Shown here: positions 20,432 through 34,690 of the stretch, in pieces | Layout of the letters: the number at the start of each line of letters is the position of its first letter | How positions within the stretch are numbered: position 1 is the stretch's first letter | Assembly (NCBI RefSeq): GCF_028993555.1 | Contig: NZ_CP118611.1 | Span: 1,420,001-1,484,000, forward strand | Source of the DNA: Ensifer adhaerens | GTDB lineage: Bacteria > Pseudomonadota > Alphaproteobacteria > Rhizobiales > Rhizobiaceae | Reading direction: 5' to 3' | DNA length: 64,000 nucleotides | The notes under the pieces: model-generated | Seen by the model: the letters and a program-made list of their open reading frames with translations, nothing else | The model's database searches: none | Told to the model about the DNA's origin: nothing | Position numbers and translations under genes: made by a program

Positions 20432-21247
20432 TCACGGCACCTGAAAGAGGTCCGTCAGGCCGCAATAGAGCCCCGAACCACTAGCCAGAACTAGTCCGCC
20501 GTTTCCCAGTGATCCAGGCGCCTGCGGATAGGTCGAGAAACGACCGCCGGCCGCTTTGATGAGCGCGAGCCCTGCCACGGCATCCCAGGGCCACATATGG
20601 CGCTCGAAATAGCCGTCCACTCGGCCCGCCGCCACATAGGCCAACATCAGGGCACCAGCGCCTACCTGACGAAAACTGCCTCCGGCGGAGAACAGACGTT
20701 CCGCGTCGGCTGCAAATGCCGCCGGCGGGATGCGATGATTGTGCCCCAGGCCAAGGGCTGTACGATCGATGCTGGCGGTAGCGCTCGTCGAAATCGGCAT
20801 TCCATTGAGAACTGGGGTGATTTCATCAGCGCCGGCGAAAAGCTCGTCGCGTATGGGATCGTAAACCACGCCGAGTACAGGCTCGCCCTTCGACCAGAGG
20901 CCGATCGAAACGCACCAGTTGGGCGCGCCCTTTAGATAATTCGTTGTGCCGTCGAGTGGATCGACGCACCAGGTGCATTCCGCCGCTTCCGCCCCGGAGA
21001 TGCCGGTTTCCTCGCCGAGAAAACCATCTTCAGGAAAGGCCGGCCGGAGAATGGATGCGATCGCCTCCTCCGCCTCACGATCGGCGATGGATACGAAGTC
21101 GTTCAGACCCTTCTGTTCGATGACGAGTCCGGCGCGGCGACCATAGTGGTCGAGCAGCAAGCGCCCGGCCTTGCGGGCGGCCTGCTCGGCCATTGCCAAT
21201 CGGGATTCCAGCCGTTGGGAGGAGGCGAATTTATGGGCCAACCTCAA
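20432..21247 (-). CDS. Inositol-monophosphatase-family phosphatase
   Basis: This is a Mg-dependent sugar phosphatase of the IMPase/FBPase/HisN fold, about 270 residues. The metal-binding motifs are visible: GEETG (78-82), VDPLDGTTNY (95-104) and WPWDAVAGLALIKAAGG near residue 216. The frame begins with TTG at 21247; a nearby second TTG has GAGG seven bases before it, and an ATG at 21193 (MAEQAARKAG) is another choice, so the start is uncertain. It lies three bases behind the RpiR gene and must be co-transcribed with it. It might dephosphorylate a sugar or polyol phosphate of the pathway, perhaps the regulator's ligand (inference). Confidence 0.85.
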   Translation of the reverse strand: MRLAHKFASSQRLESRLAMAEQAARKAGRLLLDHYGRRAGLVIEQKGLNDFVSIADREAEEAIASILRPAFPEDGFLGEETGISGAEAAECTWCVDPLDGTTNYLKGAPNWCVSIGLWSKGEPVLGVVYDPIRDELFAGADEITPVLNGMPISTSATASIDRTALGLGHNHRIPPAAFAADAERLFSAGGSFRQVGAGALMLAYVAAGRVDGYFERHMWPWDAVAGLALIKAAGGRFSTYPQAPGSLGNGGLVLASGSGLYCGLTDLFQVP

Positions 21248-21250
21248 TCC

Positions 21251-22150
21251 TCAGTAGCGTGTCAACGCAGTCACATCAGACGTGCGCTCGAGCCCTTCGA
21301 TTGCCCGCCCGAAGTTGCGAACTGCGTACAGCGAATAGAGCACGTCGATGACCTGCAGCTGCGCGATCTTCGAAACCATGGATTCGTGGTATTCGCCTGG
21401 CCCGACAACACCGGTAATGGTGGGCGTAAAAAGGCAGATATCCGCGTGCCGCACGATCGGTGAATCCGGGAAGGAAGTGATCGCCAATGTCGTCGCGCCT
21501 TGGAGTTTCGCTTGTTGCAGGCTGTCGACGGTCGAAATCGTGCGGCCGGAATTCGAGACGCCGATCGCCAGCGATTTCGGCCCAAGCGTCGAGGTCGAGA
21601 TCTGCCGGATACCAAGGTCACGGAAAAACAGGCAGCGTTTGCCGACCCGCATGAAACGCAGCAGCGCATTTTCCACACATATCAGCGAGGCTCCCATGGC
21701 GAAGAAACCGAGCACGTCAGCCTCTTCGATCGCCCCCACGGCGCGCTCCAATTCCTTTTCCGCAAGCCCGGCCCGCGTATCGGAGACGGTCATCGCATAC
21801 CGGGCGGCCACCTTCGAGAGCACCGATGACGTATTGTCCTGATCGGTGATGTCTTCATAGACGTGGCGGTCGGACAGCGTTTCGGCGGTCGACGCACCTT
21901 GGGACAGTTCCTCCGCGATAAGGATCTTAAACTGCTGGAAACTCTGGACATCGATCTCGCGAACGAAGCGTGTCACCGTGGATTCCGATACCTCGCACTG
22001 GACAGCGAGATCCTTAATCGAGATAGACTTGATTTCCTCCGGCGCCTTGAGGACCCGGTCGGCGATACGCCGCAAGGCTGGATTCATGTACCCGGCCTTC
22101 CAGCGTATCCGCATCAAAATGGATTGCCTGTTGTCCGCTGCATTGTCCAT
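21251..22150 (-). CDS. RpiR-family transcriptional regulator with SIS domain
   Basis: This is a 299-residue regulator. The N-terminal HTH_6 domain (about 1-80) shows LADRVLKAPEEIKSISIKDL-like helices and VSESTVTRFVREIDVQSFQQ (recognition helix region). The C-terminal SIS domain (about 125-260) holds LAIGVSNSGRTISTVDSLQQ, the phosphosugar-binding Ser loop. SIS regulators sense phosphosugars. It sits between the catabolic block and the importer block and is co-transcribed with the IMPase-like gene, so it is the natural regulator of both. A copy of AGAATGAAATTT lies 52 bases before its start, which fits autoregulation. Confidence 0.93.
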   Translation of the reverse strand: MDNAADNRQSILMRIRWKAGYMNPALRRIADRVLKAPEEIKSISIKDLAVQCEVSESTVTRFVREIDVQSFQQFKILIAEELSQGASTAETLSDRHVYEDITDQDNTSSVLSKVAARYAMTVSDTRAGLAEKELERAVGAIEEADVLGFFAMGASLICVENALLRFMRVGKRCLFFRDLGIRQISTSTLGPKSLAIGVSNSGRTISTVDSLQQAKLQGATTLAITSFPDSPIVRHADICLFTPTITGVVGPGEYHESMVSKIAQLQVIDVLYSLYAVRNFGRAIEGLERTSDVTALTRY

Positions 22151-22201: not shown

Positions 22202-22219
22202 AGAATGAAATTTCTTTTT
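22202..22219 (-). promoter_or_regulatory. Candidate RpiR operator upstream of rpiR gene
   Basis: AGAATGAAATTT (22202-22213) is followed by CTTTTTC, giving the near-palindrome TGAAATTTCTTTTTCA (22206-22221). It lies between the epimerase stop and the rpiR start, 52 bases from the latter. It matches the motifs at 20183 and 33901. Confidence 0.45.
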
Positions 22220-23097
22220 CACCAGACCTTGCATCCGGCTTTGGCATTTTTCCGCATCACGCAGAGAACGTCGTATGCCGAACGCGCAGCCACCAGCGAA
22301 TCTTCCCAAGCCTCGCGCCATAGACGCACGCCACCGACGAGCGCATCGCTCAGCACGCGGGAGGAAAAGGCCTCGACCGTGAAGTCCCCTGTGTAGCCAG
22401 CGCTTTCCAACGTCCTAAAGTAGGCCGAGAGGTCGAAATGACCACCACCCAGCACTCCGCGATTGCTGTCAGCGACATGGGCGTATCCGAGCAGGGACGC
22501 GTTGCGGTGGATGGCTGCGGCGATGTCCCCCTCTTCGATGTTCATGTGGAATGTGTCCATGTGGATGAAGAGGTTGGACCCGCCCGAAGCACGGATGAGG
22601 GAAGCCGCCTCGTCGAGCGTGTTCGCAAGATAGCTTTCATAGCGATTGACCGGCTCCAGCCCCAGGCGGACGCCCAGTTCGCCCGCGCGGCGGTCGAGTC
22701 GGGATAGGCTTTCGGCGACTCGCGCCCGCGCATCCTTGGTCGCCGGCGCGCCATAGTTGGAAAAGGCGGCATAGGTAATGCCTGACACCGCGGGTGCCTC
22801 GAGTTCCGAGGCGATTTCCAGAGCGCGGGCGACCGTCTCTTCGCCACGCCGGGCGAGCATCCCGTCTGCCGAAGAAATGTCCGCGTCGGGCCCGAGCGCC
22901 ATACCGAGGCGAAGCCCCAGGCCGGTCTCGCGCGTCACCCGCCGGGTAAGTGGGATATCGAGCGCCGAGGGATCGAACATCAGCACCTCTATCAGGTCGT
23001 AACCGATTTCGGATGCCGCGCGACATGCCGCGCTCGCGTTGGACGCGTCCCATTGGTCCGAAAATACGAGGGAGTGGACGCCGATCTTGCCTGACAT
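22219..23097 (-). CDS. Sugar isomerase/epimerase, tagatose-3-epimerase-like (copy 2)
   Basis: This is a 292-residue TIM-barrel enzyme of the xylose-isomerase-like/AP-endonuclease-2 fold. The metal and catalytic residues of D-tagatose/D-psicose 3-epimerases are all present: Glu148 (GLEPVNRYE), Asp181 (HMDTFHMNIEE), His207 (AHVADSNRG) and Glu242 (FTVEAFS). The NRYE and FHMNIEE blocks are typical of ketose 3-epimerases. It would interconvert ketoses or 2-keto sugars epimeric at C3. It is the last gene of the catabolic block, 91 bases behind its paralogue. GGAGGAG lies before the ATG. Confidence 0.88.
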   Translation of the reverse strand: MSGKIGVHSLVFSDQWDASNASAACRAASEIGYDLIEVLMFDPSALDIPLTRRVTRETGLGLRLGMALGPDADISSADGMLARRGEETVARALEIASELEAPAVSGITYAAFSNYGAPATKDARARVAESLSRLDRRAGELGVRLGLEPVNRYESYLANTLDEAASLIRASGGSNLFIHMDTFHMNIEEGDIAAAIHRNASLLGYAHVADSNRGVLGGGHFDLSAYFRTLESAGYTGDFTVEAFSSRVLSDALVGGVRLWREAWEDSLVAARSAYDVLCVMRKNAKAGCKVW

Positions 23098-23188: not shown

Positions 23189-24088
23189 TCAAGCGACTTC
23201 CCGGCGGGGCAAGGGCTGCCGCGCGTTCATGCTCGCGACCGCAGCATCGATGTGACCACGCATGAAGCGCAGCCCCTTGGTCGCAAGATCCAAGCTATCG
23301 GTCCAATGAGTGGTCCACGCAGCCAGGACATCGGCCACGCCTCCCTTGAGGACGGCCGGCGAGAACGCCTCGAACACCACTGGCCCATCATAGGAGGTGC
23401 GGACCAAAGCCCGGAAATACTCGTGGAAGTCAACCGATCCAGAGCCGAGATAGCCGCGATTGCTCTCGCCGACGTGGACATGGCCGATGGCATCGACGTT
23501 GCGCGCGATGGTGTCGGCGAAGTCGTGCTCCTCGATGTTCATGTGGTAGCTGTCGATATGGGCGAATAGTGCCGGCGACCCCACCGTCCGAACGATCCGC
23601 GCGGCGTCATCCACCGTGTTGACCACGTTGCTCTCATAGCGGTTGACCGCCTCGATACCGAGCCGGACGCCGGCGGCGTTGGCCCGCGCAGCGAGACGAG
23701 CATAAGTTTCGGTGACGCGGTCGATCGTACCAGCCGCCGCCGCTTGCCCGTAGCGGTGCATCGCCGAGTGTGTGACGCCGCCGAGAAGCGTCGAGCCCAT
23801 GTCTCGCGTCGCCAGGATCGCGTCCGAGATGAACTGCTCGCCGGCCCTTGCCACTGCCGGATCTGCGCTGGAGATATCGGCGGCTGGGTTGAGCGCCATG
23901 CCGGTGACGGCGCCGATGCCAGCCGCGGCAAGCGCCTTTGCTGTGACGTCAGGACGTGCATCTTTGGGCTCGAAGATCACCGCCTCTATCAGGTCGTATC
24001 CAGTCTCTGCCGTATTACCGACGGCATAACGTATTGACTCCTCGGTCCAGTCGGTGACCCAGACGAGTGCGTGAACACCAAGCTGCAT
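23189..24088 (-). CDS. Sugar isomerase/epimerase, tagatose-3-epimerase-like (copy 1)
   Basis: This 299-residue TIM-barrel protein is paralogous to the next gene, with the same catalytic set: Glu146 (IEAVNRYES), Asp179 (HIDSYHMNIEE), His205 (HVHVGESNRG) and Glu240 (VVFEAFSP). Two tandem, diverged copies suggest two different epimerisations or a hetero-oligomer. A long C-terminal helix ends in a basic tail (RQPLPRREVA). It starts 14 bases after the SDR... in transcription it follows the SDR gene directly. Confidence 0.88.
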   Translation of the reverse strand: MQLGVHALVWVTDWTEESIRYAVGNTAETGYDLIEAVIFEPKDARPDVTAKALAAAGIGAVTGMALNPAADISSADPAVARAGEQFISDAILATRDMGSTLLGGVTHSAMHRYGQAAAAGTIDRVTETYARLAARANAAGVRLGIEAVNRYESNVVNTVDDAARIVRTVGSPALFAHIDSYHMNIEEHDFADTIARNVDAIGHVHVGESNRGYLGSGSVDFHEYFRALVRTSYDGPVVFEAFSPAVLKGGVADVLAAWTTHWTDSLDLATKGLRFMRGHIDAAVASMNARQPLPRREVA

Positions 24089-24102: not shown

Positions 24103-24888
24103 TCAGCCGAAGATGGAGCGGATTGTGCCGCCATCGGCGCGATGGCAGACGCCGTTCATGGCCGCGTTTGTCATCAGCTGAACGACGCCACGCCCGTGCA
24201 GTGCTGGATCGATCAGCTTCTGCGTAAGGTTGGAGGGCTGGACGTCACGGTAGAAGTCCGCCAGCGTCTGCTCGACGGTCTTGCCCTGCTGCGCGGCGAG
24301 GTCGGCGAAGTAGGTTTCCACCGATTCGGTGGCAGTCGAGCCCGGCATGTAGCTGTTTACGCGCACATTCGTGCCGCGCGTCAGTTCCGCCAGCGAGCGA
24401 CTGAGGCCAAGCATCGCGGTCTTGGTGGTGGAGTACGGCGTCATGTTGCCAATGGAGCGGATCGCGGCTTCCGAGGAGATAAAGACGATGCTGCCATCGT
24501 TCCGCGCCAGCATGTCCTTCATCACCAAGCGGGTAATGCGGATCGCCGTCATGAGATTGTGCTGGAAGTACTCCATCCAGCGCTCATCGCTGACTTCGAA
24601 GAAGTCATTGACGTCAAATACTCCGATATTGTTGACGAGGAACGATACGGGACCGAGACGGGCGGCATAGTCTGCCAAAGTCTGAGCTCCCTCCTTTGTC
24701 AGAAGATCGGCGACCACGCCGTGGGCCTGCGGGCCGATCGACGCTGCAGCCTTGTCGAGTTTGGCCTGGTCGCGGCCGTTGATGATGACGACCGCGCCCT
24801 CTTCATGGAAGGTACGCGCAATCGCGTGGCCGATGCCCGTCGCGCCGCCAGTCACGACGACGATCTTGTCCTTGAGTCCGAAATCCAT
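24103..24888 (-). CDS. Short-chain dehydrogenase/reductase
   Basis: This is a 261-residue SDR with cofactor loop VVTGGATGIGHAIA, structural NNIGV (usual NNAG), catalytic Ser in FISSEAA and YSTTK. The C-terminal lid is long (TYFADLAAQQGKTVEQTLAD). It is paralogous to the SDR at 12174-12962. The ATG at 24888 is preceded by GAGTGAGGACC; an upstream extension of the frame has no similarity to SDRs. It is part of the catabolic block, 28 bases behind the MBL-phosphatase fusion gene. Confidence 0.9.
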   Translation of the reverse strand: MDFGLKDKIVVVTGGATGIGHAIARTFHEEGAVVIINGRDQAKLDKAAASIGPQAHGVVADLLTKEGAQTLADYAARLGPVSFLVNNIGVFDVNDFFEVSDERWMEYFQHNLMTAIRITRLVMKDMLARNDGSIVFISSEAAIRSIGNMTPYSTTKTAMLGLSRSLAELTRGTNVRVNSYMPGSTATESVETYFADLAAQQGKTVEQTLADFYRDVQPSNLTQKLIDPALHGRGVVQLMTNAAMNGVCHRADGGTIRSIFG

Positions 24889-24916: not shown

Positions 24917-26215
24917 TTAAGCGGTCCGCGCGAATTGCGACAGCCGCTCGCAGGCCGCGTTGATCTGGTCGAAGACGGCCTCGAAGGCTGCCCGCGATTG
25001 TCCCCACGGGTCGATGATTGTGGATTCCTCGCCTGGAACCCCATACGCGCCGAGGCGACCGATGCGCGCGTGAGAGCCCTCCGGACGGAGCGTCCGGATG
25101 GCCTCCATGTTTTCGTCGTCCATGCCAAGGATCAAGTCGAACTCCTCGAAATCGGTCTTCCGGATCTGCCGTGCAACCAGTCTGTCCAGCGCGACGCCTC
25201 GGGCCGCTGCCACGGCTGTTGTTTCGGCGTGCGGCGGCTTGCCGACGTTCCAGTCCATGATCGCGGCGCTGTCGATCCGATGATGCGGCAGAGCGGCGCG
25301 CAGAATGCCGTCGGCAGTCGGTGAGCGGCAGATGTTCCCGCGGCAGACGATGAGGATTGAAAGCGCAGACTGTTCGACAGGGCGGATTTGATAGGCGGTA
25401 GATATCTCCGCCAGCCGCACTTCGGCCCGAGGTGTCAGAGCGGCTAACCGCCGCGCGCCGTCCTCGGGATCAAGCGTGTTGAAGTCGAAAAGTCCGAAGT
25501 GATGACCGATCATGGCCCGTGCGCCGATCTCATCGACGAGCGCGACAGCCTCTTCGAGCGTCAGGTTGCCAGGCACGCCGTTGGCGGCGCGCAGTGCGTC
25601 CCGGCCGTTCACCGGCAGAAGTGCCAAGTCGACCCGGAATGGCATAAGCCATTCCGCAAGACCGGGGAAAGGAATGGTGTCGCCGGAATGCCAGAGCGTT
25701 ACGCCGCCGCCGGAAAGGACATAACCGAGGAAGAGATAACCGTCCGCTGTGCGCTTCAGATCCTCGTGCGCCGCGGCCGTCGCGGTGACGATGACGCCGC
25801 CGAGGTCCACGCTTTCCCCGGCGTCGATCAGCACCAGGCGCTCTTCCGGCGCGCCCCGTTCGATCACCCGCGCCTTTTCGGCGCGGGGCGCGAGCACCTT
25901 CGCCTGCGGATTGGCTGCGAGAAGCGCGGGGATCGTGCCCGGATCCATGTGATCGGTATGCCCATGGGTACAGAGCAGCCAGTCGACGCCGCGCAGGCCT
26001 CCCGGCTCGACTGGTGTTGGCGTCATCCGCTGATGCGGAAACCGGGTTCCCAGGTACTTTTCCGCAAGAGAATCGGAGAGGTAGGCATCGATGACGATGG
26101 TGAGCCCCGCCTGTCGGATTAGGAAACCCGCCTGGCCGAGCCAGGCCAGGCTGGCGCCCACCACCGCATCAAGCGCGTCCACCGTAGCAAGAGGATAAGC
26201 CTCTATGACACTCAT
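24917..26215 (-). CDS. Fusion: metallo-beta-lactamase-fold hydrolase + low-Mr tyrosine phosphatase
   Basis: This is one 432-residue chain with two enzyme domains. Residues about 15-275 are a metallo-beta-lactamase-fold hydrolase of the UlaG/L-ascorbate-6-phosphate lactonase-like type: WLGQAGFLI, the metal motif HGHTDH (84-89), HSGDT (175-179) and IGHHFG (235-240). Residues about 285-432 are a low-molecular-weight protein tyrosine phosphatase: VCRGNICRSPTA with Cys290 and Arg296 (CX5R), and the acid Asp401 in IDPWGQ. Both active sites look intact. The frame is continuous, with a short linker (YQIRPVEQSA). It overlaps the upstream dehydrogenase gene by four bases. I know each family, but not this fusion. 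It may open a sugar-phosphate lactone and remove phosphate, or couple metabolism to phosphotyrosine control (both inference). Confidence 0.88.
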   Translation of the reverse strand: MSVIEAYPLATVDALDAVVGASLAWLGQAGFLIRQAGLTIVIDAYLSDSLAEKYLGTRFPHQRMTPTPVEPGGLRGVDWLLCTHGHTDHMDPGTIPALLAANPQAKVLAPRAEKARVIERGAPEERLVLIDAGESVDLGGVIVTATAAAHEDLKRTADGYLFLGYVLSGGGVTLWHSGDTIPFPGLAEWLMPFRVDLALLPVNGRDALRAANGVPGNLTLEEAVALVDEIGARAMIGHHFGLFDFNTLDPEDGARRLAALTPRAEVRLAEISTAYQIRPVEQSALSILIVCRGNICRSPTADGILRAALPHHRIDSAAIMDWNVGKPPHAETTAVAAARGVALDRLVARQIRKTDFEEFDLILGMDDENMEAIRTLRPEGSHARIGRLGAYGVPGEESTIIDPWGQSRAAFEAVFDQINAACERLSQFARTA

Positions 26216-27135
26216 GTCCGCACCAGGTTTTTCAAGAGGTTGTCCACAGCGACACTCGTCGCCCGGTCGACGCTTTCCTCCGTAAAACCGCCGGCATGCG
26301 GGGTCAGGATCACACGCTCGTGGCTGAGCAAAGAGGAGCTTTCCGGCGGCTCACTATGGAATACGTCGGTCGCCAGCGTCGAGACCTGTCCGCTATCAAG
26401 CGCCGCCAACATCGCGGCGTCATCGATCAGCTCGGCCCGTGCCGTGTTGACGATGATCACGCCCTTCTTCATGCGCGAGATCATGGTGCCGTCGAGAATG
26501 GGCTTTTCCCCCGGCGGGCAATGGAAGGAGACCGCGTCCGCCGAAACGAGCGCGTCTTCCAGTTCCGCGAAGCGAAATCCGGGGGGCGCGAAGCGGTCGT
26601 TCGGATAGGGATCATAACCGATCACCTCCATTCCCAACCCAAGAGCCATGCCCACAACCTCGCGGCCGATCGCACCGCAACCGATGACGGCAAGTGTTCG
26701 TCCTTTCACCTCCTGCCCTATCCGCCTGCGCCATTCTCCCTTGGCGAGTTGCTGATGCGACCAGGGGATATGCCGGTAGGACGAGAGCAGAAGCCCGACC
26801 GCGAGCTCTGCAACGCCACGGGCATTTGCCCCCATGGCACGCTCCACCGTTATGCCGCGAGCCTCGGCTTCACGAAGGTCGATGTTGTCGACCCCCGTGC
26901 CGTTGCGGCTGATGACGCGCAAGTCCTTGGCAGCGTCGAGCACCCGAACGCTGATCGGTTCTACGCCGGCCAGCCAGCCGACGCAGCCTGGGATCGCCCG
27001 CAAAAGGTCTTCCTCCGAAGGCGTTTTGCCCGGTGCAGGAAAGACGATTTCGAAACCCTCGTCCATCAGGCGCGAGAGGATTGGATGGCCCGAACCGGAG
27101 AGTGAACGGGGCGTGATAGCGATCCTACCGGGCAT
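26212..27135 (-). CDS. D-2-hydroxyacid dehydrogenase family protein
   Basis: This 307-residue NAD-dependent enzyme belongs to the phosphoglycerate dehydrogenase-like family. The dinucleotide motif is VIGCGAIGREV (152-157 core). The catalytic set Arg233 (NTARAELID), Glu262 (HSEPPE) and His280 (TPHAGGFTEES) is present, and NGTGVDNIDL binds substrate. There is no ACT domain, so it is the short form. It oxidises or reduces a 2-hydroxy acid at C2. It starts 12 bases behind the cupin isomerase and overlaps the next gene by four bases. Confidence 0.92.
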   Translation of the reverse strand: MPGRIAITPRSLSGSGHPILSRLMDEGFEIVFPAPGKTPSEEDLLRAIPGCVGWLAGVEPISVRVLDAAKDLRVISRNGTGVDNIDLREAEARGITVERAMGANARGVAELAVGLLLSSYRHIPWSHQQLAKGEWRRRIGQEVKGRTLAVIGCGAIGREVVGMALGLGMEVIGYDPYPNDRFAPPGFRFAELEDALVSADAVSFHCPPGEKPILDGTMISRMKKGVIIVNTARAELIDDAAMLAALDSGQVSTLATDVFHSEPPESSSLLSHERVILTPHAGGFTEESVDRATSVAVDNLLKNLVRT

Positions 27136-27735: not shown

Positions 27736-28683
27736 TCAGGCGGTTGCGTCGCGGGCGATACGGCTCAAGGCCTCGAAGGCTGGCCCGGACATGGGGATGT
27801 CGATGTCGAAAACTTCGGCGATCACGCGCGTCCAGCCGTGGATGAAGTAGACCCATCCATCATGGACCGTGAGGTTTCGCACGCCTGCCGAAGCGTGAGC
27901 CTGGTCGAGAAAGACGAGGTCGCCACGATAGTTGAATTCCCAGACGAGGCCGTTTTCCGGAAACCGCACCGCATCTGTGACCGGTGACCCCGGCCCGTCC
28001 TTGCCGAGGCCCGTGGCGTTGACGACCATGGAGCCGGCGGGCAGGTCCCCCACCACCCGGTCCGCCTCTTCAGGCGTCGGTGCGAGGCGATACTCGACAG
28101 GGATCGAGAAGCCGATCTCACCGTGCACGTGGCGCATCTCGGCAAGCGAGGCTTCGCGCCGGGCCGTCACGATGAGGCGCGCCGGCACGTCACCGCCAGC
28201 TTGCTTCTTGTTGTGCAGGTAGAGGGAAAGCGCCAACGACGAGCCGCCGGAACCCAGTACGCAAAGCGTTGCGCCGGTACGCGCCCAGTAGCCTTCGGGA
28301 ACGATCGCCTCGAAGCTAGCGCCTGCGGTGATCGGATCCTTCGCATGGCCGGCGAGGCGACCGTTTCGCTTTGAGATCGAACTGATCTCGTGCAGGGTGC
28401 GCGCGTAGGGGTCAAGGTCGTCGAAAATCTCGCGCGAGGCCTTCAGCAAGTTGACCTTGTGGGTTGTTACGAGCGCCCCCAGTGACAGTGGATCGGCTTT
28501 GATGAATTCGACTGCGCGGCGATAGTCGGCCGGATCGGAATTCGGAGCAAAATCGATGCCCTTCATCTCGGCATCAAGGCCGAGGTGCGCCGACCACGCC
28601 GGAAAGACCTTCATGATCGAAGATCTTCCGGTCGTAACCCCGATAAAATACATCGTGCGCCGGGAAGCTGGAACATATGCCAT
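27736..28683 (-). CDS. Shikimate-dehydrogenase-like oxidoreductase
   Basis: This 315-residue protein has the two-domain AroE fold. Lys76-77 region VTTHKVNLL corresponds to the catalytic Lys of shikimate dehydrogenases, HAKDPITAGASFE to the NTDxxGF substrate motif (altered), and VLGSGGSSLALSLYL to the nucleotide loop. The substrate motif differs and the chain is longer than biosynthetic AroE. The surroundings are sugar genes, so the substrate is probably a sugar-derived hydroxy compound and not shikimate. ATG at 28683 with GAGGA seven bases upstream was chosen over the TTG just before it. Confidence 0.8.
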   Translation of the reverse strand: MAYVPASRRTMYFIGVTTGRSSIMKVFPAWSAHLGLDAEMKGIDFAPNSDPADYRRAVEFIKADPLSLGALVTTHKVNLLKASREIFDDLDPYARTLHEISSISKRNGRLAGHAKDPITAGASFEAIVPEGYWARTGATLCVLGSGGSSLALSLYLHNKKQAGGDVPARLIVTARREASLAEMRHVHGEIGFSIPVEYRLAPTPEEADRVVGDLPAGSMVVNATGLGKDGPGSPVTDAVRFPENGLVWEFNYRGDLVFLDQAHASAGVRNLTVHDGWVYFIHGWTRVIAEVFDIDIPMSGPAFEALSRIARDATA

Positions 28684-28693
28684 CAAGACGTCC

Positions 28694-30193
28694 TCATTCG
28701 TGCTCGGCCCAATCCCGCGACCTATCGATGGTGCGGCACCAGCCGTGGTAAAGGTGATCGGCGGACGCTCTGTCCGTCGAGGGTAGGAATTCCCGGTCGA
28801 GCGCGAAGGCGGTGTGCAAGTCCGCCATGTCCTTCCAGTAGCCGACGGCGAGGCCGGCCAGGAACGCGGCGCCCCGCGCGGTCGTGTCGATGACCTTCGG
28901 GCGCAATACCCGCACGCCGAGCTGATCGGCCTGGAACTGCAGGACGAAATTGTTCATCGCTGCACCGCCGTCGACCTTGAGTTCGGCCAGGGCGATACCC
29001 GAGTCGGCTTCCATGCGATCGATCACGTCGCGGATCTGGTAGGCCATGGATTCCAGCGAGGCGCGGATCAAGTGATTGCGGTTCGCGCCGCGGGTGATTC
29101 CGACGATCGTGCCGCGCGCGTACTGGTCCCAGAAGGGCGCCGACAGGCCATTGAAGGCGGGAACGATGTAGACGCCGTTGGTGTCCGGCACTTCGAGCGC
29201 CGCCGCTTCCGTCTCCGAGGCGCTGTGAATGATCTTCAGTTCGTCGCGCAGCCACTGCACCACGGAGCCGACTGAGAAAAGCGTGCCTTCCAGCGCATAT
29301 TCCAGCTTTCCTCCAAGGCGCCAAGCGACCGTGGTGAGCAGGCCATTGTCCGAGGCCCGCATCTGCGAGCCCGTGTTCATCAGCAACGTGCCGCCGGTGC
29401 CGTAGGTGGCCTTGACCATGCCCTCGGCAAAACAGGATTGACCGAAGAGCGCGCCCTGCTGGTCGCCGATCGAGGAGGCGACCGGAATCTCGGCACCGAA
29501 AAGATCGCGATCGGTCAAGCCGTAGACCTCGGAACTGTCGCGCACCTCCGGCAGGATGGAGCGCGGCACGTTGAGTTCTGCCAGCAGGCGCTCGTCCCAA
29601 TCCCCGGTCTGGATGTTGAAGAGCAGCGTACGCGAGGCGTTTGAGGCGTCCGTGACATGGGCACGACCGCCCGTGAGGTTCCAAATCAACCAAGTGTCGA
29701 TCGTGCCGGCCGCAAGTTCTCCGCGCCTGGCCCGTTCGAGCGCTCCCGGCGTGTTTTCGAGAATCCAGGCCAGCTTGGTCCCTGAGAAGTAAGCGTCGAT
29801 GACCAGACCGGTTGTGTCTTTGACATAGCGCTCGAGCCCCCTCGCCTTCAGCTGGTCGCAGACGCCGGCCGTTCGCCGATCCTGCCAGACGAGGGCATTG
29901 TGCAGGGGAACTCCCGTCTTGCGATCCCAGATCAGGCAGGTTTCGCGCTGATTAGTGATACCAATGGCCACGACCTGCTGGGCATCGATGCCTGCATTGT
30001 GCATAACTTCGCGCGCGACCGAGAGCTGCGTCGACCAGATTTCGTTGGCGTCATGCTCGACCCAGCCGGGCCGCGGGTAGATCTGCCGGAACTCCCTTTG
30101 CGCGAGCGAGACGATATTGCCCGCCCTGTCGAACAGGATCGCTCTTGCGCTGGACGTTCCCTCGTCCAGCGCCATGACGTAGCGCTCCACCAT
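28694..30193 (-). CDS. glpK: Glycerol kinase (FGGY family)
   Basis: This is a 499-residue carbohydrate kinase. It shows the full GlpK signature: [13 protein letters not shown] at the N-terminus, NQRETCLIW with Arg83 and Glu84, [15 protein letters not shown] with Tyr135, [10 protein letters not shown] with catalytic Asp244, and [12 protein letters not shown]. These residues bind glycerol in E. coli GlpK, so a glycerol-like triol or short polyol is the likely substrate. The ATG at 30193 is preceded by GGGAGGAG. A much longer upstream frame is only a shadow of the neighbouring dehydrogenase. It lies 23 bases behind the zinc dehydrogenase gene. Confidence 0.88.
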
Positions 30194-30216: not shown

Positions 30217-31266
30217 TCAGTCGTTCGGCTTGAACAGGATCTTGTGATACCTGCCGAAGCTTCGCTCTTTCAGTGCCTTGAAAATGGACGGCGCCTCCTC
30301 GAGCGTCGCCCGGTGCGTGATCAGCGGCTCGACCGTCAGCCGGCCGTCTGCGAGCAAACCGATGATGTCGAACCATTCCTTTCCGGGGAACGGCAGCGAA
30401 TAGGAGTTCCAGGACCCGACGACCTGAAGCTCTTCGCGGACGATGCGTGCGAATGCCTTCTCCGCGAAGGAAACGTCTCCATACGCCGTGCCGTAGAGCA
30501 TGACAGTGCCCTGCTTGGCAGTTACCAAGATGGACATGTTGCGGCCCGGCTCGGAGCCGGCGCATTCCAGCGCAACCGCAACGCCGCGGCCGCCAGTCGC
30601 CTCCCGCACACGGGCGACCACATCGTCCCTTACCGGGTTCAGGCAGAGGTCCGCGCCGACCTCGCGTGCAAGCGCCAGCTTGTCGTCATCGACGTCGATA
30701 GCTATCAGCGGCCGCGCGCCGGAGAGCTTAGCGAATTGTAGCGCGAAATAGCCGAGCGCGCCGCAGCCAACCACGGCGATCGCATCGCCGAGCTTGATAT
30801 CCAGTTTGTGGATGCCGTGCAGAATGATCGCCGCAGGCTCGATGGTCGCCGCTACCTCGTAGGGCACGTTGTCCGGCACCTTCAACACGTTTGCGGCGGG
30901 CGCACAGAGGTACTGCGCGAACGCCCCGTCGCTGCGCGAGCCCATGAAGTCATAATCGTCGCACAGGTGAAACTTGCCGGCTTCGCACCACTGGCACTTG
31001 CGGCAGGGCATCAGCGGTGCAACTGCCACCCGATCGCCAACATTCAGATGGCTGACGGAAGCGCCCACCCTCTCCACACGTCCGGCGAATTCATGTCCCG
31101 GAATGGTGGGGAAGTGGTAGGTACCTGTCACCATGACGCGGCCGATGTCCGAACCGCAGATGCCGGCGGCCTTGACCTCGACCAGGACATCGTCCGGTCC
31201 GATTTCAGGGACCGGTACGTCCTCGATCCTGAGATCGCCGGGCGCATGCAACACAGCAGCCTTCAT
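30217..31266 (-). CDS. Zinc-dependent alcohol/polyol dehydrogenase (copy 2)
   Basis: This is a 349-residue medium-chain dehydrogenase of the sorbitol/galactitol-1-phosphate dehydrogenase type. Catalytic zinc ligands are Cys37 (AAGICGSD), His58-Glu59 (PGHEFAG) and the later Glu in TIEPAAI. The structural zinc is bound by the four Cys in [16 protein letters not shown]. The nucleotide motif is [15 protein letters not shown]. It would oxidise a secondary alcohol of a polyol or polyol phosphate to a ketose. The ATG overlaps the stop of the related gene upstream (ATGA at 31263-31266). Confidence 0.92.
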
Positions 31267-32321
31267 TGCAGCTTCTCCTCCTGCGGGTAGATGATCGTTT
31301 TCATGCCCTTGCCGGATAAAGCATGCTCGAACGCGGTGACCGCATCCGCAATGCCAAAGCGATGGGTAACGACGTCGGTCACACGGATCCTGCCGGTCTC
31401 GACGAGCCGGAGCGCGCGGGCGTAGTCTTCGATGCTGGAGCCGGTCGAGCCGAGAAGCTTCAGGCCCCAGTAGTGAACCTTGTTCGTATCGAGTTCGACG
31501 AGCGTTCCCTTGTTGAGACCGGAAAAGAAATTCATGCGGCCCAGACGCGCTAGGCAGGACAAGGCCTGGACCTGAAGCTCAGGAGCAGGCGCGCAGGTCA
31601 GGGCGACATCGACACCACGACCACCTGTCAGGCGCATTACCTCGTCGACCACCTCGACTTTGCTGGAATCCACCGTGTGCGTAGCACCCAGCGGGGCGAT
31701 CTCCTCAAGCCGTTCAGCGCGACGGCCGACGACGATCACTTGCCCCGCACCGTAGGCGCGGGCAAGTTGCAGGAACATGCCCGCGATCGGCCCGGTTCCG
31801 AGGATCAGCACGCGATCTTCCGGCGCTACCGAAAGATCCTTCCAGGCATTGAAGCAGCAGGAAAGCGGCTCGACCAGCGAGGCCTCCTCGTAGCTCATCG
31901 CCTCGGGGATCTCGAAGAGGTTACCACCAGAGATGGCCCCAGCGGTGACGATCATGTACTGCTGAAAGCCACCATCGATATCAATGCCGAAGGCCTTGTA
32001 GTCCGGGCACATGTTGTTGAGGCCTTTGCGGCACATATCGCAATGGCCGCATCCGATGTTTGGCACGACGGAAACCCGCTGGCCCAGCCGCCAGTGCGAC
32101 ACGTGGCGACCGACCTCAACTATCTCACCTGAAAGCTCGTGGCCGAGCACGCGCGTGTCATTGACCCCGACGCGAAAATGGCCGCCGCGCAGGACCTTGA
32201 GATCCGTGCCGCAGATCGAGGCGGCGAAGACGCGGACCAACACCTCGTCGTCCCGAGGCTGCGGGCGCGGCCTCTCCTCGAGAACGATGCGGCCCTTGCC
32301 CTGATATACGGCGGCCTTCAT
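31263..32321 (-). CDS. Zinc-dependent alcohol/polyol dehydrogenase (copy 1)
   Basis: This 352-residue medium-chain dehydrogenase has catalytic Cys37 (AASICGTD), His61-Glu62 (LGHELSG), the structural zinc cluster CGHCDMCRKGLNNMC, and Rossmann loop ILGTGPIAGMFLQLA. It is of the same broad type as the following gene but clearly diverged, so two oxidation steps or two substrates are likely. The ATG at 32321 has GGAGG upstream. The four-base spacing to the SDR stop and four-base overlap with the next gene show one operon. Confidence 0.92.
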   Translation of the reverse strand: MKAAVYQGKGRIVLEERPRPQPRDDEVLVRVFAASICGTDLKVLRGGHFRVGVNDTRVLGHELSGEIVEVGRHVSHWRLGQRVSVVPNIGCGHCDMCRKGLNNMCPDYKAFGIDIDGGFQQYMIVTAGAISGGNLFEIPEAMSYEEASLVEPLSCCFNAWKDLSVAPEDRVLILGTGPIAGMFLQLARAYGAGQVIVVGRRAERLEEIAPLGATHTVDSSKVEVVDEVMRLTGGRGVDVALTCAPAPELQVQALSCLARLGRMNFFSGLNKGTLVELDTNKVHYWGLKLLGSTGSSIEDYARALRLVETGRIRVTDVVTHRFGIADAVTAFEHALSGKGMKTIIYPQEEKLQ

Positions 32322-32325
32322 TGCG

Positions 32326-33159
32326 TCACACCTCCATGCCGTAGCGGTGGGCCTTGTGGGTCGGATAGAGCGAGATGGTTGGGATCGTGACGTCCGGAGT
32401 GCGCGTGGCAACGTAGAGCGCCAGCCAAGCGACGTTGTCGACGTCGATGCAGGAGGCGTGGATGCCTTCCTTGATCTCCTTCTCGTCGAGCCAACCGTCC
32501 ACGTAGGCTTCAAGATCGCCGTCGTAGAGGCCCTTGTCGATGATCTCGGTCATCGGCGTCTTGACGTGACTCGGATTGAGCACCGTCACCCCGATCTTCT
32601 TGTCTTTGCCTTCGAGAAGAATGTTCTTGGAGAAGCCCAGCATGCCATGTTTCGAAGCACGGTAGGGGCTATGGCCCGGCCCGGAGGCGACGCGGGTGGA
32701 GGACGAGCCCATATTGATGATGCGACCGCCCTCAGCTTGCTTTTCCATGTAGAGGAAAGCTTCGCGGCAGCACAGGAAGACCGCCGTCAGGTTCGGACCG
32801 ATCGTCTTGTTCCATTCGTCGAGGGTAACGCGGGTGACCGGTGGCGCAAGACTGTCGCGCCCGGCGGAATTGACGACCACGTCGATCGAACCGAAGGCTT
32901 CGTTGACCTGCCTGAAGAAGGAGCGGACGGTTTCTTCCTCGCAGACGTCGGCGTAGATCGGCAGAACCGTACCACCATCAGCTTTGATCTCGCTAGCGAC
33001 GCGCTCAAGGCGCTCGCGGTCAAAGTCAATCATGGCGACCTTGGCGCCGTTTTGCGCGTAGATCCGTGCGACCGCCTCGCCGATGCCGGACGCCGCACCC
33101 GTGATGATGCAGGATTTCCCCTTGAGGGACAGCCCCTCAGATAGGGTGTTGCTAGCCAT
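32326..33159 (-). CDS. Short-chain dehydrogenase/reductase
   Basis: This 277-residue classical SDR has cofactor loop ITGAASGIGEAVA, VVNSAGRD, catalytic Ser in NMGSSSTRV and YRASK. The C-terminal part is longer than usual (EAYVDGWLDEKEIKEGIHAS) and ends in SLYPTHKAHRYGMEV. Asp in MIDFDRER after beta-2 suggests NAD preference. It is the second gene of the catabolic operon, 57 bases behind the KDPG aldolase gene. Confidence 0.92.
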   Translation of the reverse strand: MASNTLSEGLSLKGKSCIITGAASGIGEAVARIYAQNGAKVAMIDFDRERLERVASEIKADGGTVLPIYADVCEEETVRSFFRQVNEAFGSIDVVVNSAGRDSLAPPVTRVTLDEWNKTIGPNLTAVFLCCREAFLYMEKQAEGGRIINMGSSSTRVASGPGHSPYRASKHGMLGFSKNILLEGKDKKIGVTVLNPSHVKTPMTEIIDKGLYDGDLEAYVDGWLDEKEIKEGIHASCIDVDNVAWLALYVATRTPDVTIPTISLYPTHKAHRYGMEV

Positions 33160-33216: not shown

Positions 33217-33861
33217 TCAGCCCCTAGCGGCCAGGGCGACGGCCTCTGCAGTCAACCGACTGATTTCCTTGAAATTTCTTTCTCGGATGAGCTTTGCGTC
33301 CACCATCCAGGAGCCACCGCAGGCAAGAACCGTGGGAAGCGCCAGGTAAGAGGCCAGGTTGGCCGGACCAATCCCGCCGGTCGGAACGAAGCGCATGCCC
33401 GGATATGGTCCAGCGAGCGCCTTGAGAAATGGCACCCCGCCACTCGGCTCCGCCGGGAAAAACTTCACCGCCTCCAGCCCGAAGCTCATCGCTTGTTCGA
33501 CACCCGTCGGGTTGTTGACGCCCGGCACGATCGGCAGCGCAGCAGCAAGCGAAGCTTCCACGATTGCGGGATTGAAACCCGGCGTAACGATGAACTGTGC
33601 GCCGGCGCTACCGGCTGCCGCCAAATGCTCCCTCGTCAGCACCGTACCAGCCCCGATCAACATTTCCGGGACGCTGTTGCGGATAAGAGAAATCGCGCCT
33701 GCAGCCGCCGCCGTGCGGAAGGTTATCTCCGCTACAGCCAAGCCGCCTTCCAGCAGCGCTGTCGCAAGCGGAATAGCATCTGCAAGGGCGTCCAGCACCA
33801 CAACGGGCAGAATGCCGGCAGCAGCGACGCGTGCGGAGACGTCGGCGGCGGTTGACTTCAT
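33217..33861 (-). CDS. eda: KDPG/KHG-type 2-keto-3-deoxy aldolase
   Basis: This is a 214-residue class I aldolase. Glu45 (AEITFRT) and the Schiff-base Lys133 (VKFFPAEPSGG) fall at the same positions as in E. coli Eda; VPTGGIGPANLASYL binds phosphate. It splits 2-keto-3-deoxy-6-phosphogluconate, or a related keto-deoxy acid, into pyruvate and an aldehyde. The ATG at 33861 has GGAGG five bases upstream; a TTG four codons earlier does not. It is the first gene of the long minus-strand catabolic block. Confidence 0.93.
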   Translation of the reverse strand: MKSTAADVSARVAAAGILPVVVLDALADAIPLATALLEGGLAVAEITFRTAAAAGAISLIRNSVPEMLIGAGTVLTREHLAAAGSAGAQFIVTPGFNPAIVEASLAAALPIVPGVNNPTGVEQAMSFGLEAVKFFPAEPSGGVPFLKALAGPYPGMRFVPTGGIGPANLASYLALPTVLACGGSWMVDAKLIRERNFKEISRLTAEAVALAARG

Positions 33862-33895
33862 CGCTTCCTCCAATCGAATTCGTTACCGTGCGTGA

Positions 33896-34054: not shown

Positions 34055-34690
34055 ATGATCAAGGCAGTCTTGTGGGACATGGATGGCACATTGGTTGACA
34101 GCGAAGGCATCGCCGTTTCGGCCCTTGCCTTAGCCATGGAGGAGGCTGGATTGACGCCTCCAACGGACCTCATGCAACGGGTGGTCGGGCGCTCTGCAGA
34201 CGAGATTTACCGAAACATGGTCAGTGACTTCGGACTACGCGCCGGTCCTTTGGAATGGGAGCGCCGCAAGCACCACTTTTACTTCCGCGCGGCCGACCAG
34301 CTCAGAGGCTACGACGATGCCGTGCTAACATGGCACCGACTGGACGCCGCGAACATTCGCCAGGCGGTGGTCTCAAACAGCGACCGCGCGATCGTCGACG
34401 TGAATCTGCGAGTTGCCGGCCTTGCACGACCGGGTCTCGTCACCGTCGCTCGAAACGACGTGTTGCGGGGCAAACCTGACCCCGAGGGATATCTGAGAGC
34501 CACATACTTGTTAGGCGTCGAGCCCCACGAGTGCTTGATTGTCGAAGACAGCGCCAGCGGCGCGGCGGCGGCCCTTTCCGCCGGCATCGAGACGGTCTTT
34601 GTGCCGCACAGCCATAGCTCGGCACCGGCGGGCGTCAGGACCCTTTCGTCGATGAGCCAATTGGAGCAGGAAGTACTCGAACCAGCATGA
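34055..34690 (+). CDS. HAD-superfamily sugar-phosphate phosphatase/phosphomutase
   Basis: This 211-residue HAD subfamily IA protein is of the beta-phosphoglucomutase/2-deoxyglucose-6-phosphatase type. Motif I is LWDMDGTLVDS with nucleophile Asp8 and acid Asp10, motif II is VVSNSDRAIV, motif III Lys is in RGKPDPEGY, and motif IV is LIVEDSASGAAAA. The cap domain lies at about 17-80. It is divergent from the catabolic operon, so control by the motif at 33901 is possible. It precedes the GMC gene but with a 102-base gap carrying a separate GntR-type site. Confidence 0.9.
   Translation: MIKAVLWDMDGTLVDSEGIAVSALALAMEEAGLTPPTDLMQRVVGRSADEIYRNMVSDFGLRAGPLEWERRKHHFYFRAADQLRGYDDAVLTWHRLDAANIRQAVVSNSDRAIVDVNLRVAGLARPGLVTVARNDVLRGKPDPEGYLRATYLLGVEPHECLIVEDSASGAAAALSAGIETVFVPHSHSSAPAGVRTLSSMSQLEQEVLEPA

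Follow-up and report, generated by a model that had tools for sequence, protein, structure and literature searches.

The region analysed here, referred to as the window, is a stretch of 64,000 nucleotides from Ensifer adhaerens (contig NZ_CP118611.1, positions 1,420,001 to 1,484,000). Its minus strand carries a gene (24917..26215) for a protein of 432 amino acids in which, as indicated by the open reading frame, Pfam, the alignment of homologs and AlphaFold2, a UlaG-like MBL hydrolase is joined to a low-Mr protein tyrosine phosphatase (LMW-PTP). The MBL-fold hydrolase domain (residues 1-280, 25376..26215) contains the aligned metal-binding motif HGHTDH (residues 84-89, 25949..25966). The LMW-PTP domain (residues 284-432, 24917..25366) contains, according to the alignment, the CX5R P-loop CRGNICR (C291-R297, 25325..25345) and the general acid Asp402 (25010..25012), the equivalent of Asp129; the codon for Arg292, which the pocket alignment equates with bovine Leu13, lies at 25340..25342. 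The gene overlaps by four bases with the upstream gene for a D-2-hydroxyacid dehydrogenase of the phosphoglycerate-dehydrogenase-like type (26212..27135). Frame, strand, length and overlap agree with the initial annotation of this DNA, and so does the position of HGHTDH; the numbers given there for the CX5R motif (290-296) and its aspartate (401) were one too low.

The hydroxyacid dehydrogenase belongs to the operon core together with a cupin-type glucose-6-phosphate isomerase (PF06560, 27148..27723), a shikimate-dehydrogenase-like protein (27736..28686) and a KDPG/KHG aldolase scoring over the cut-off of the eda subfamily (33217..33873), all encoded on the minus strand. The same strand encodes, between the last two, an FGGY kinase that passes the cut-off of the GlpK (glycerol kinase) models (28694..30190), two zinc alcohol dehydrogenases with best NCBIfam scores, both under the cut-off, for galactitol-1-P 5-dehydrogenase (30217..31266) and IolM (31263..32318), and the short-chain dehydrogenase SDR1 (32326..33159). 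On the other side of the fusion gene, again on the minus strand, lie the short-chain dehydrogenase SDR2 (24103..24888), two TIM barrels, one ketose-3-epimerase-like (EPIa, 23189..24088) and one IolO/psicose-epimerase-like (EPIb, 22219..23097), an RpiR-family regulator (21251..22150) and a phosphatase of the inositol-monophosphatase family (20432..21247). A HAD-family sugar-phosphatase-like gene on the plus strand (34055..34690) is divergent from the operon. These neighbours support the earlier placing of the fusion gene in a sugar/polyol catabolic operon. No obvious dehydratase, which the ordinary Entner-Doudoroff route needs, was seen in the window. The shikimate-dehydrogenase-like protein, with no Pfam match at E<=1e-5 and 41.8 bits against an NCBIfam cut-off of 413, is apparently an uncharacterised enzyme of the same pathway. 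As to the Thermotoga inositol pathway (IolM, IolN, IolO), the product of 31263..32318 scores best against the IolM model (206.8 of 450) and that of 22219..23097 against the IolO model (128.1 of 300), both far under the cut-offs.

The in-frame joining of an MBL hydrolase to a complete LMW-PTP has been confirmed. Pfam matches to Lactamase_B_2 (1e-23, residues 40-240) and LMWPc (PF01451; 1.3e-35, residues 287-425; 123.1 bits against a cut-off of 23.2) were obtained with the same protein; its N-terminal part has the MBL fold with HxHxDH and its C-terminal part the LMW-PTP fold. The structure prediction proposed with the initial annotation was made with AlphaFold2 and gave two folded domains (mean pLDDT 93.2, pTM 0.93). 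Pfam, motifs and alignment all bear out the view that a single frame holds two intact active sites. Between residues 251 and 300 the only candidate internal starts for a free PTP are GTG and CTG codons at 260-268. The claim that no such enzyme had been described holds in so far as a full-text literature search returned no description of the MBL and LMW-PTP pairing; it does not extend to uniqueness, as several relatives are already named "UlaG (beta-lactamase superfamily)/protein-tyrosine-phosphatase" by JGI.

The MBL domain is UlaG-like in fold, though it scores under the cut-offs of the UlaG model (NF008688, NCBIfam equivalog; 38.9 bits against 306) and of the UPF0173 model (NF001911/PRK00685, NCBIfam; 52.9 bits against 144). 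UlaG is not known to have a PTP domain. The fusion differs from this L-ascorbate-6-phosphate lactonase (PDB 2wyl/2wym) also in its operon and in reaching 38.9 of 306 bits, and from the UPF0173 metal-dependent hydrolases (TM_1162, 3x2z) in reaching 52.9 of 144. Activity of the domain as a lactonase is unproven, since its score lies so far under the UlaG cut-off.

Counting of homolog architectures, proposed with the initial annotation, gave at least 87 full-length MBL-PTP proteins: 7999 candidates were scored, and 87 proteins of at least 380 amino acids extending over both domains stood among the best 120 of 2493 matches, so a frameshift or missed stop in one genome is not the cause of the fusion. 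In one of the 87 (P0081) the PTP part has decayed and carries no LMWPc label. The fusions among the matches listed come from Ensifer, Rhizobium, Gemmobacter, a Geminicoccaceae MAG and many metagenomes. In the family sample 3 of 297 genomes, the own genome included, encode a full-length fusion; in the order (397 genomes) and class (385 genomes) samples it occurs in the own genome only.

An alignment of 89 rows was built from the window protein and 88 homologs, 87 of them full-length and one partial. In it the MBL ligands H84, H86, D88, H89, H150, D179 and H239 are conserved throughout the rows that extend to these positions (88-89 of 89), and the catalytic Cys, Arg and Asp of the PTP are present in 88, 87 and 87 rows, respectively, with all three in 86 of 89. 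At least one of them has been lost in P0063, P0071 and P0081, the MBL ligands of which are intact; P0073, considered as a further protein without the catalytic Cys, was rejected because the altered residue is C296. The dN/dS values obtained between five close Rhizobiales loci are 0.09-0.12 (MBL) and 0.11-0.15 (PTP); comparison with three more distant Rhodobacterales loci gives 0.10-0.27 and 0.27-0.36, respectively (9 of 11 fusion loci were used, L003 and L007 being left out, and L010 is saturated). The PTP is less constrained over these larger distances.

LMW-PTPs are commonly regarded as phosphatases acting on proteins. Their substrate pocket was compared, in the numbering of mouse ACP1, between 87 aligned fusions (P0063, which has no motif, was left out) and the 100 nearest stand-alone LMW-PTP matches, which are not a random set. 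In the fusions hardly any variation is seen at positions 12, 14, 15, 18, 19, 92, 129 and 130 (at least 85 of 87 alike), and the same holds for Ile16 (86 of 87) and for Trp49, a part of the pTyr clamp (85 of 87). At position 13 (bovine Leu13), which adjoins the catalytic Cys, 84 of 87 fusions have Arg or Lys, whereas the stand-alone proteins have Leu (71), Met (22), Thr (6) or Arg (1). Differences are also found at position 131 (Trp in 63 and Tyr in 21 of 87 fusions against Tyr in 98 of 100 stand-alone proteins), at position 132 (Gly in 66 of 87 against Tyr in 80 of 100), at position 47 (Met in 72 of 87 against G/A/H/S) and at position 50, where the fusions resemble the mouse enzyme (Asn in 84 of 87) and the stand-alone proteins have His. 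The window protein has R292, W404 and G405 at positions 13, 131 and 132. A second control of 30 LMWPc loci from the family of the window contained no Arg or Lys at position 13 (Leu 16, Thr 7, Met 3, His 1, Ala 1, Ile 1); 29 of these loci (21 LMW-PTPs and 8 of the NSARS type) have the motif and one has none.

The fused domain resembles the LMW-PTPs mouse ACP1 (2p4u), YfkJ (4etm) and Primo-1 (7cuy) in fold, CX5R motif, Asp general acid and Trp49, and differs from them in being joined to an MBL domain, in Arg/Lys13 and in the residues, mostly Trp and Gly, at 131 and 132. The combination of Leu/Met13 with Tyr131/Tyr132, usual in stand-alone relatives, is absent from it; this combination is a feature of specificity and does not define the LMW-PTP fold family. 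The new aspect of these proteins is the pocket, which differs from that of stand-alone LMW-PTPs while the catalytic residues stay. The only stand-alone protein with Arg13 among the 100 (P0126, 194 amino acids, from a metagenome) is possibly an unfused sister or the donor of the fused domain. The genome of the window also encodes a conventional LMW-PTP (L115, C1:3686118-3686552) with the motif CLGNICRS, 36% identical to the fused domain.

A precedent for a basic residue at position 13 comes from redesigned human LMW-PTP. In that study (PMC7316235), the L13R substitution raised the activity towards PI(5)P from none to 4.4 nmol/min/mg and towards PI(3)P from 0.5 to 4.4 nmol/min/mg with retention of pNPP activity (1215 against 1303 nmol/min/mg), and L13R combined with I16K reached 42.5 with PI(5)P; the gain is credited there to new contacts of the basic residues with phosphate groups. 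The engineered enzymes L13R and L13R-I16K (6y2v; PMC7316235) share with the fusions the basic position 13 and an intact P-loop; they are man-made, and the fusions retain Ile16 and differ at 131 and 132. The Arg/Lys13 that the fusions have by nature suggests, short of proof, that their substrate carries another anionic group besides the phosphate, e.g. a phospho-sugar acid.

The history of the fusion was followed in trees of both domains. In a quick PTP tree 29 fusions are separated from 71 stand-alone proteins by a branch with SH-aLRT 92, which is not starred; the starred set of 30 rows comprises the 29 fusions and one stand-alone protein. The MBL tree has 96 domains (49 from fusions, 47 MBL-only), and 24 MBL-only proteins of 278-295 amino acids lie among its fusions; most of them are metagenomic, and a separate downstream PTP is possible there. 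The state changes 11 times in this tree, at least four changes being forced by well-supported branches, and a single clade of the 49 fusions is rejected (p-AU 1.8e-57); such a clade, obtained with 12 fusion rows (SH-aLRT 98) in a tree with MBL rows from eight phyla, was overturned by the addition of metagenomic MBL-only proteins. As the fused PTPs group together while MBL-only proteins are nested among the fusions of the MBL tree, the PTP was, by parsimony, probably gained once and then lost several times, the fusion having probably occurred once in Alphaproteobacteria. Spreading of the PTP module by recombination instead of a gain with losses is possible. One fusion followed by repeated loss would make the PTP domain a conditional asset.

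Gene neighbourhoods were compared in the best 80 of 219 relatives' genome loci, some of which are on contigs cut short, with identity thresholds applied. The core around the MBL gene comprises the shikimate-dehydrogenase-like protein (76 of 80 loci), the cupin glucose-6-phosphate isomerase (71), the hydroxyacid dehydrogenase (61) and the KDPG aldolase (58), and it occurs, whole or in part and with swappable kinases, dehydrogenases and transporters, across eight phyla. The fusion is present in 11 of the 80 loci, and the other 69 are without LMW-PTP: no separate LMW-PTP gene was found in the DNA fetched for them by BLAST at 1e-5 or by motif, the neighbourhood being partial in 11 loci shorter than 15 kb. 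The finding that would have refuted the claim according to the initial annotation, homologs that are always two separate genes, was thus not made: none of the 69 has an LMW-PTP gene in the DNA fetched. The C.GN..R motif was likewise absent from 26 further MBL-only loci, each shorter than 4.1 kb. At L086 an alignment into the PTP part with three stops was considered as a PTP remnant and rejected: the MBL frame ends and no remnant follows. A GlpK-type kinase like that of the window is found in 17 of the 69 non-fusion loci, most of which also have the same dehydrogenases. Since the core occurs without LMW-PTP in 69 of 80 loci, the PTP is accessory and dispensable for the core chemistry.

Close relatives of EPIb (at least 50% identity) are present in 11 of 11 fusion loci against 0 of 69 others, and close relatives of SDR2 (at least 60% identity) beside 10 of 11 fusions against 0 of 69 MBL-only genes. 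The link depends on the identity threshold and is suggestive only. Distant relatives of EPIb (26-41% identity) are encoded in 7 of the 69 non-fusion loci and epimerase-like proteins in general (26-46%) in 8, one of which, from Xenophilus (L015), shares the kinase type of the window; when any SDR is counted, 51 of the 69 have a protein resembling SDR2, at up to 41% identity. The association may reflect shared ancestry.

Considering all these features, we propose that the fusion is a bifunctional pathway enzyme with the PTP domain repurposed for the phosphate of an anionic small molecule, a reading held tentatively, at slightly under an even chance, in which both substrates, the order of steps and the branch are inferred. 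The MBL domain would catalyse a core hydrolysis step, most likely the opening of a phosphorylated lactone or keto-ring intermediate, in an Entner-Doudoroff-like route ending in the KDPG aldolase. The fused LMW-PTP would keep the two-step phosphatase chemistry of Cys, Arg and Asp in a pocket rebuilt (Arg/Lys at 13, mostly Trp at 131, mostly Gly at 132) for a small phosphate ester with a further negative charge, probably a phospho-sugar acid supplied by the MBL domain or a neighbouring enzyme. Once freed of phosphate, the product may enter a lineage-specific side branch of non-phosphorylated compounds (EPIb, SDR2); alternatively, the step may act as an overflow valve. The conserved active sites, the low dN/dS at close range, the shift of the pocket at several positions and, by analogy, the L13R precedent are consistent with such repurposing, as are the close relatives of EPIb and SDR2 that track the fusion and the conventional LMW-PTP elsewhere in the genome. 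Against it, the core runs without PTP in 69 of 80 loci, 17 of them with the same GlpK-type kinase; dephosphorylation of what the kinase of the operon has phosphorylated could amount to a futile cycle; 85 of 87 fusions retain Trp49 of the pTyr clamp; R292 might contact the MBL domain rather than the pocket; and L13R does not abolish aryl-phosphatase activity, its phosphoinositide rates being small in comparison with pNPP (PMC7316235). The fuller version of the proposal, a natural LMW-PTP shifted from protein tyrosine to sugar-acid or inositol-type phosphate by the charge at position 13, joined to the hydrolase making its substrate and giving access to a branch without phosphorylated compounds (EPIb, SDR2) in a widespread Entner-Doudoroff-like pathway not described so far, is possible though rather unlikely as a whole.

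Two functions had been put forward in the initial annotation, and phosphate removal from a pathway compound is favoured over phosphotyrosine signalling since the pocket differs systematically from that of stand-alone LMW-PTPs. If the PTP domain were a genuine phosphotyrosine phosphatase, attached to a metabolic enzyme and coupling pathway flux to tyrosine-phosphorylation signalling, this would account for the conserved fold and catalytic residues, for Trp49 and for the mouse-like Asn50, and tyrosine phosphorylation is plausible in this genome, as two of its proteins score over the TIGR01007 (BY-kinase-type) cut-off; with the deviating positions 13, 47, 131 and 132, a conventional LMW-PTP in the same genome and none of the genome's 11 TIGR01007 matches within the window, we consider this coupling unlikely. 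Metabolite repair, in which the PTP destroys a dead-end phosphorylated by-product of the promiscuous kinases or dehydrogenases of the operon and is not a pathway step, is equally doubtful: it would explain a useful yet dispensable PTP, the MBL-only proteins among the fusions, the AU rejection of one fusion clade in the MBL tree (p 1.8e-57) and the other phosphatases nearby (HAD, inositol-monophosphatase family), but the by-product remains hypothetical and the close relatives of EPIb and SDR2 that track the fusion better fit a branch. A mainly structural role of the PTP domain, stabilising or tethering the hydrolase with catalysis being secondary, seems highly improbable with all three catalytic residues in 86 of 89 rows and low PTP dN/dS among five close loci, even if P0063, P0071 and P0081 (3 of 89 rows) have lost a catalytic residue while keeping the MBL ligands and the pTM of 0.93 suggests a fixed arrangement. 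An assembly or gene-prediction artefact, two genes read as one, was rejected as having practically no chance of being true: no point in its favour was found, the same single frame recurs in many independent genomes and metagenomes, and MBL and PTP identities co-vary between fusions (Mantel r 0.79, 43 fusions, reached by 0 of 2000 permutations).

If the PTP is repurposed, a clade with intact chemistry and a recharged pocket would show an LMW-PTP turning into a metabolite phosphatase, with R292 as the concrete residue behind the hypothesis, and the labels "protein-tyrosine-phosphatase" or "arsenate reductase" on fusion proteins would mislead. A literature search found no description of the conserved catabolic core (MBL, shikimate-dehydrogenase-like protein, cupin isomerase, hydroxyacid dehydrogenase, KDPG aldolase); as this core occurs, whole or in part, in eight phyla among the 80 loci, the fusion offers an entry point into a part of sugar metabolism that is still open. 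The core is present without PTP on pSymB of Sinorhizobium meliloti, and a published passage on pgiA2 lists SMb20857 as one of three annotated glucose-6-phosphate isomerases of this species. A plasmid of Shinella zoogloeoides carries the operon with the fusion, and a HAD phosphatase gene adjoins the operon there.
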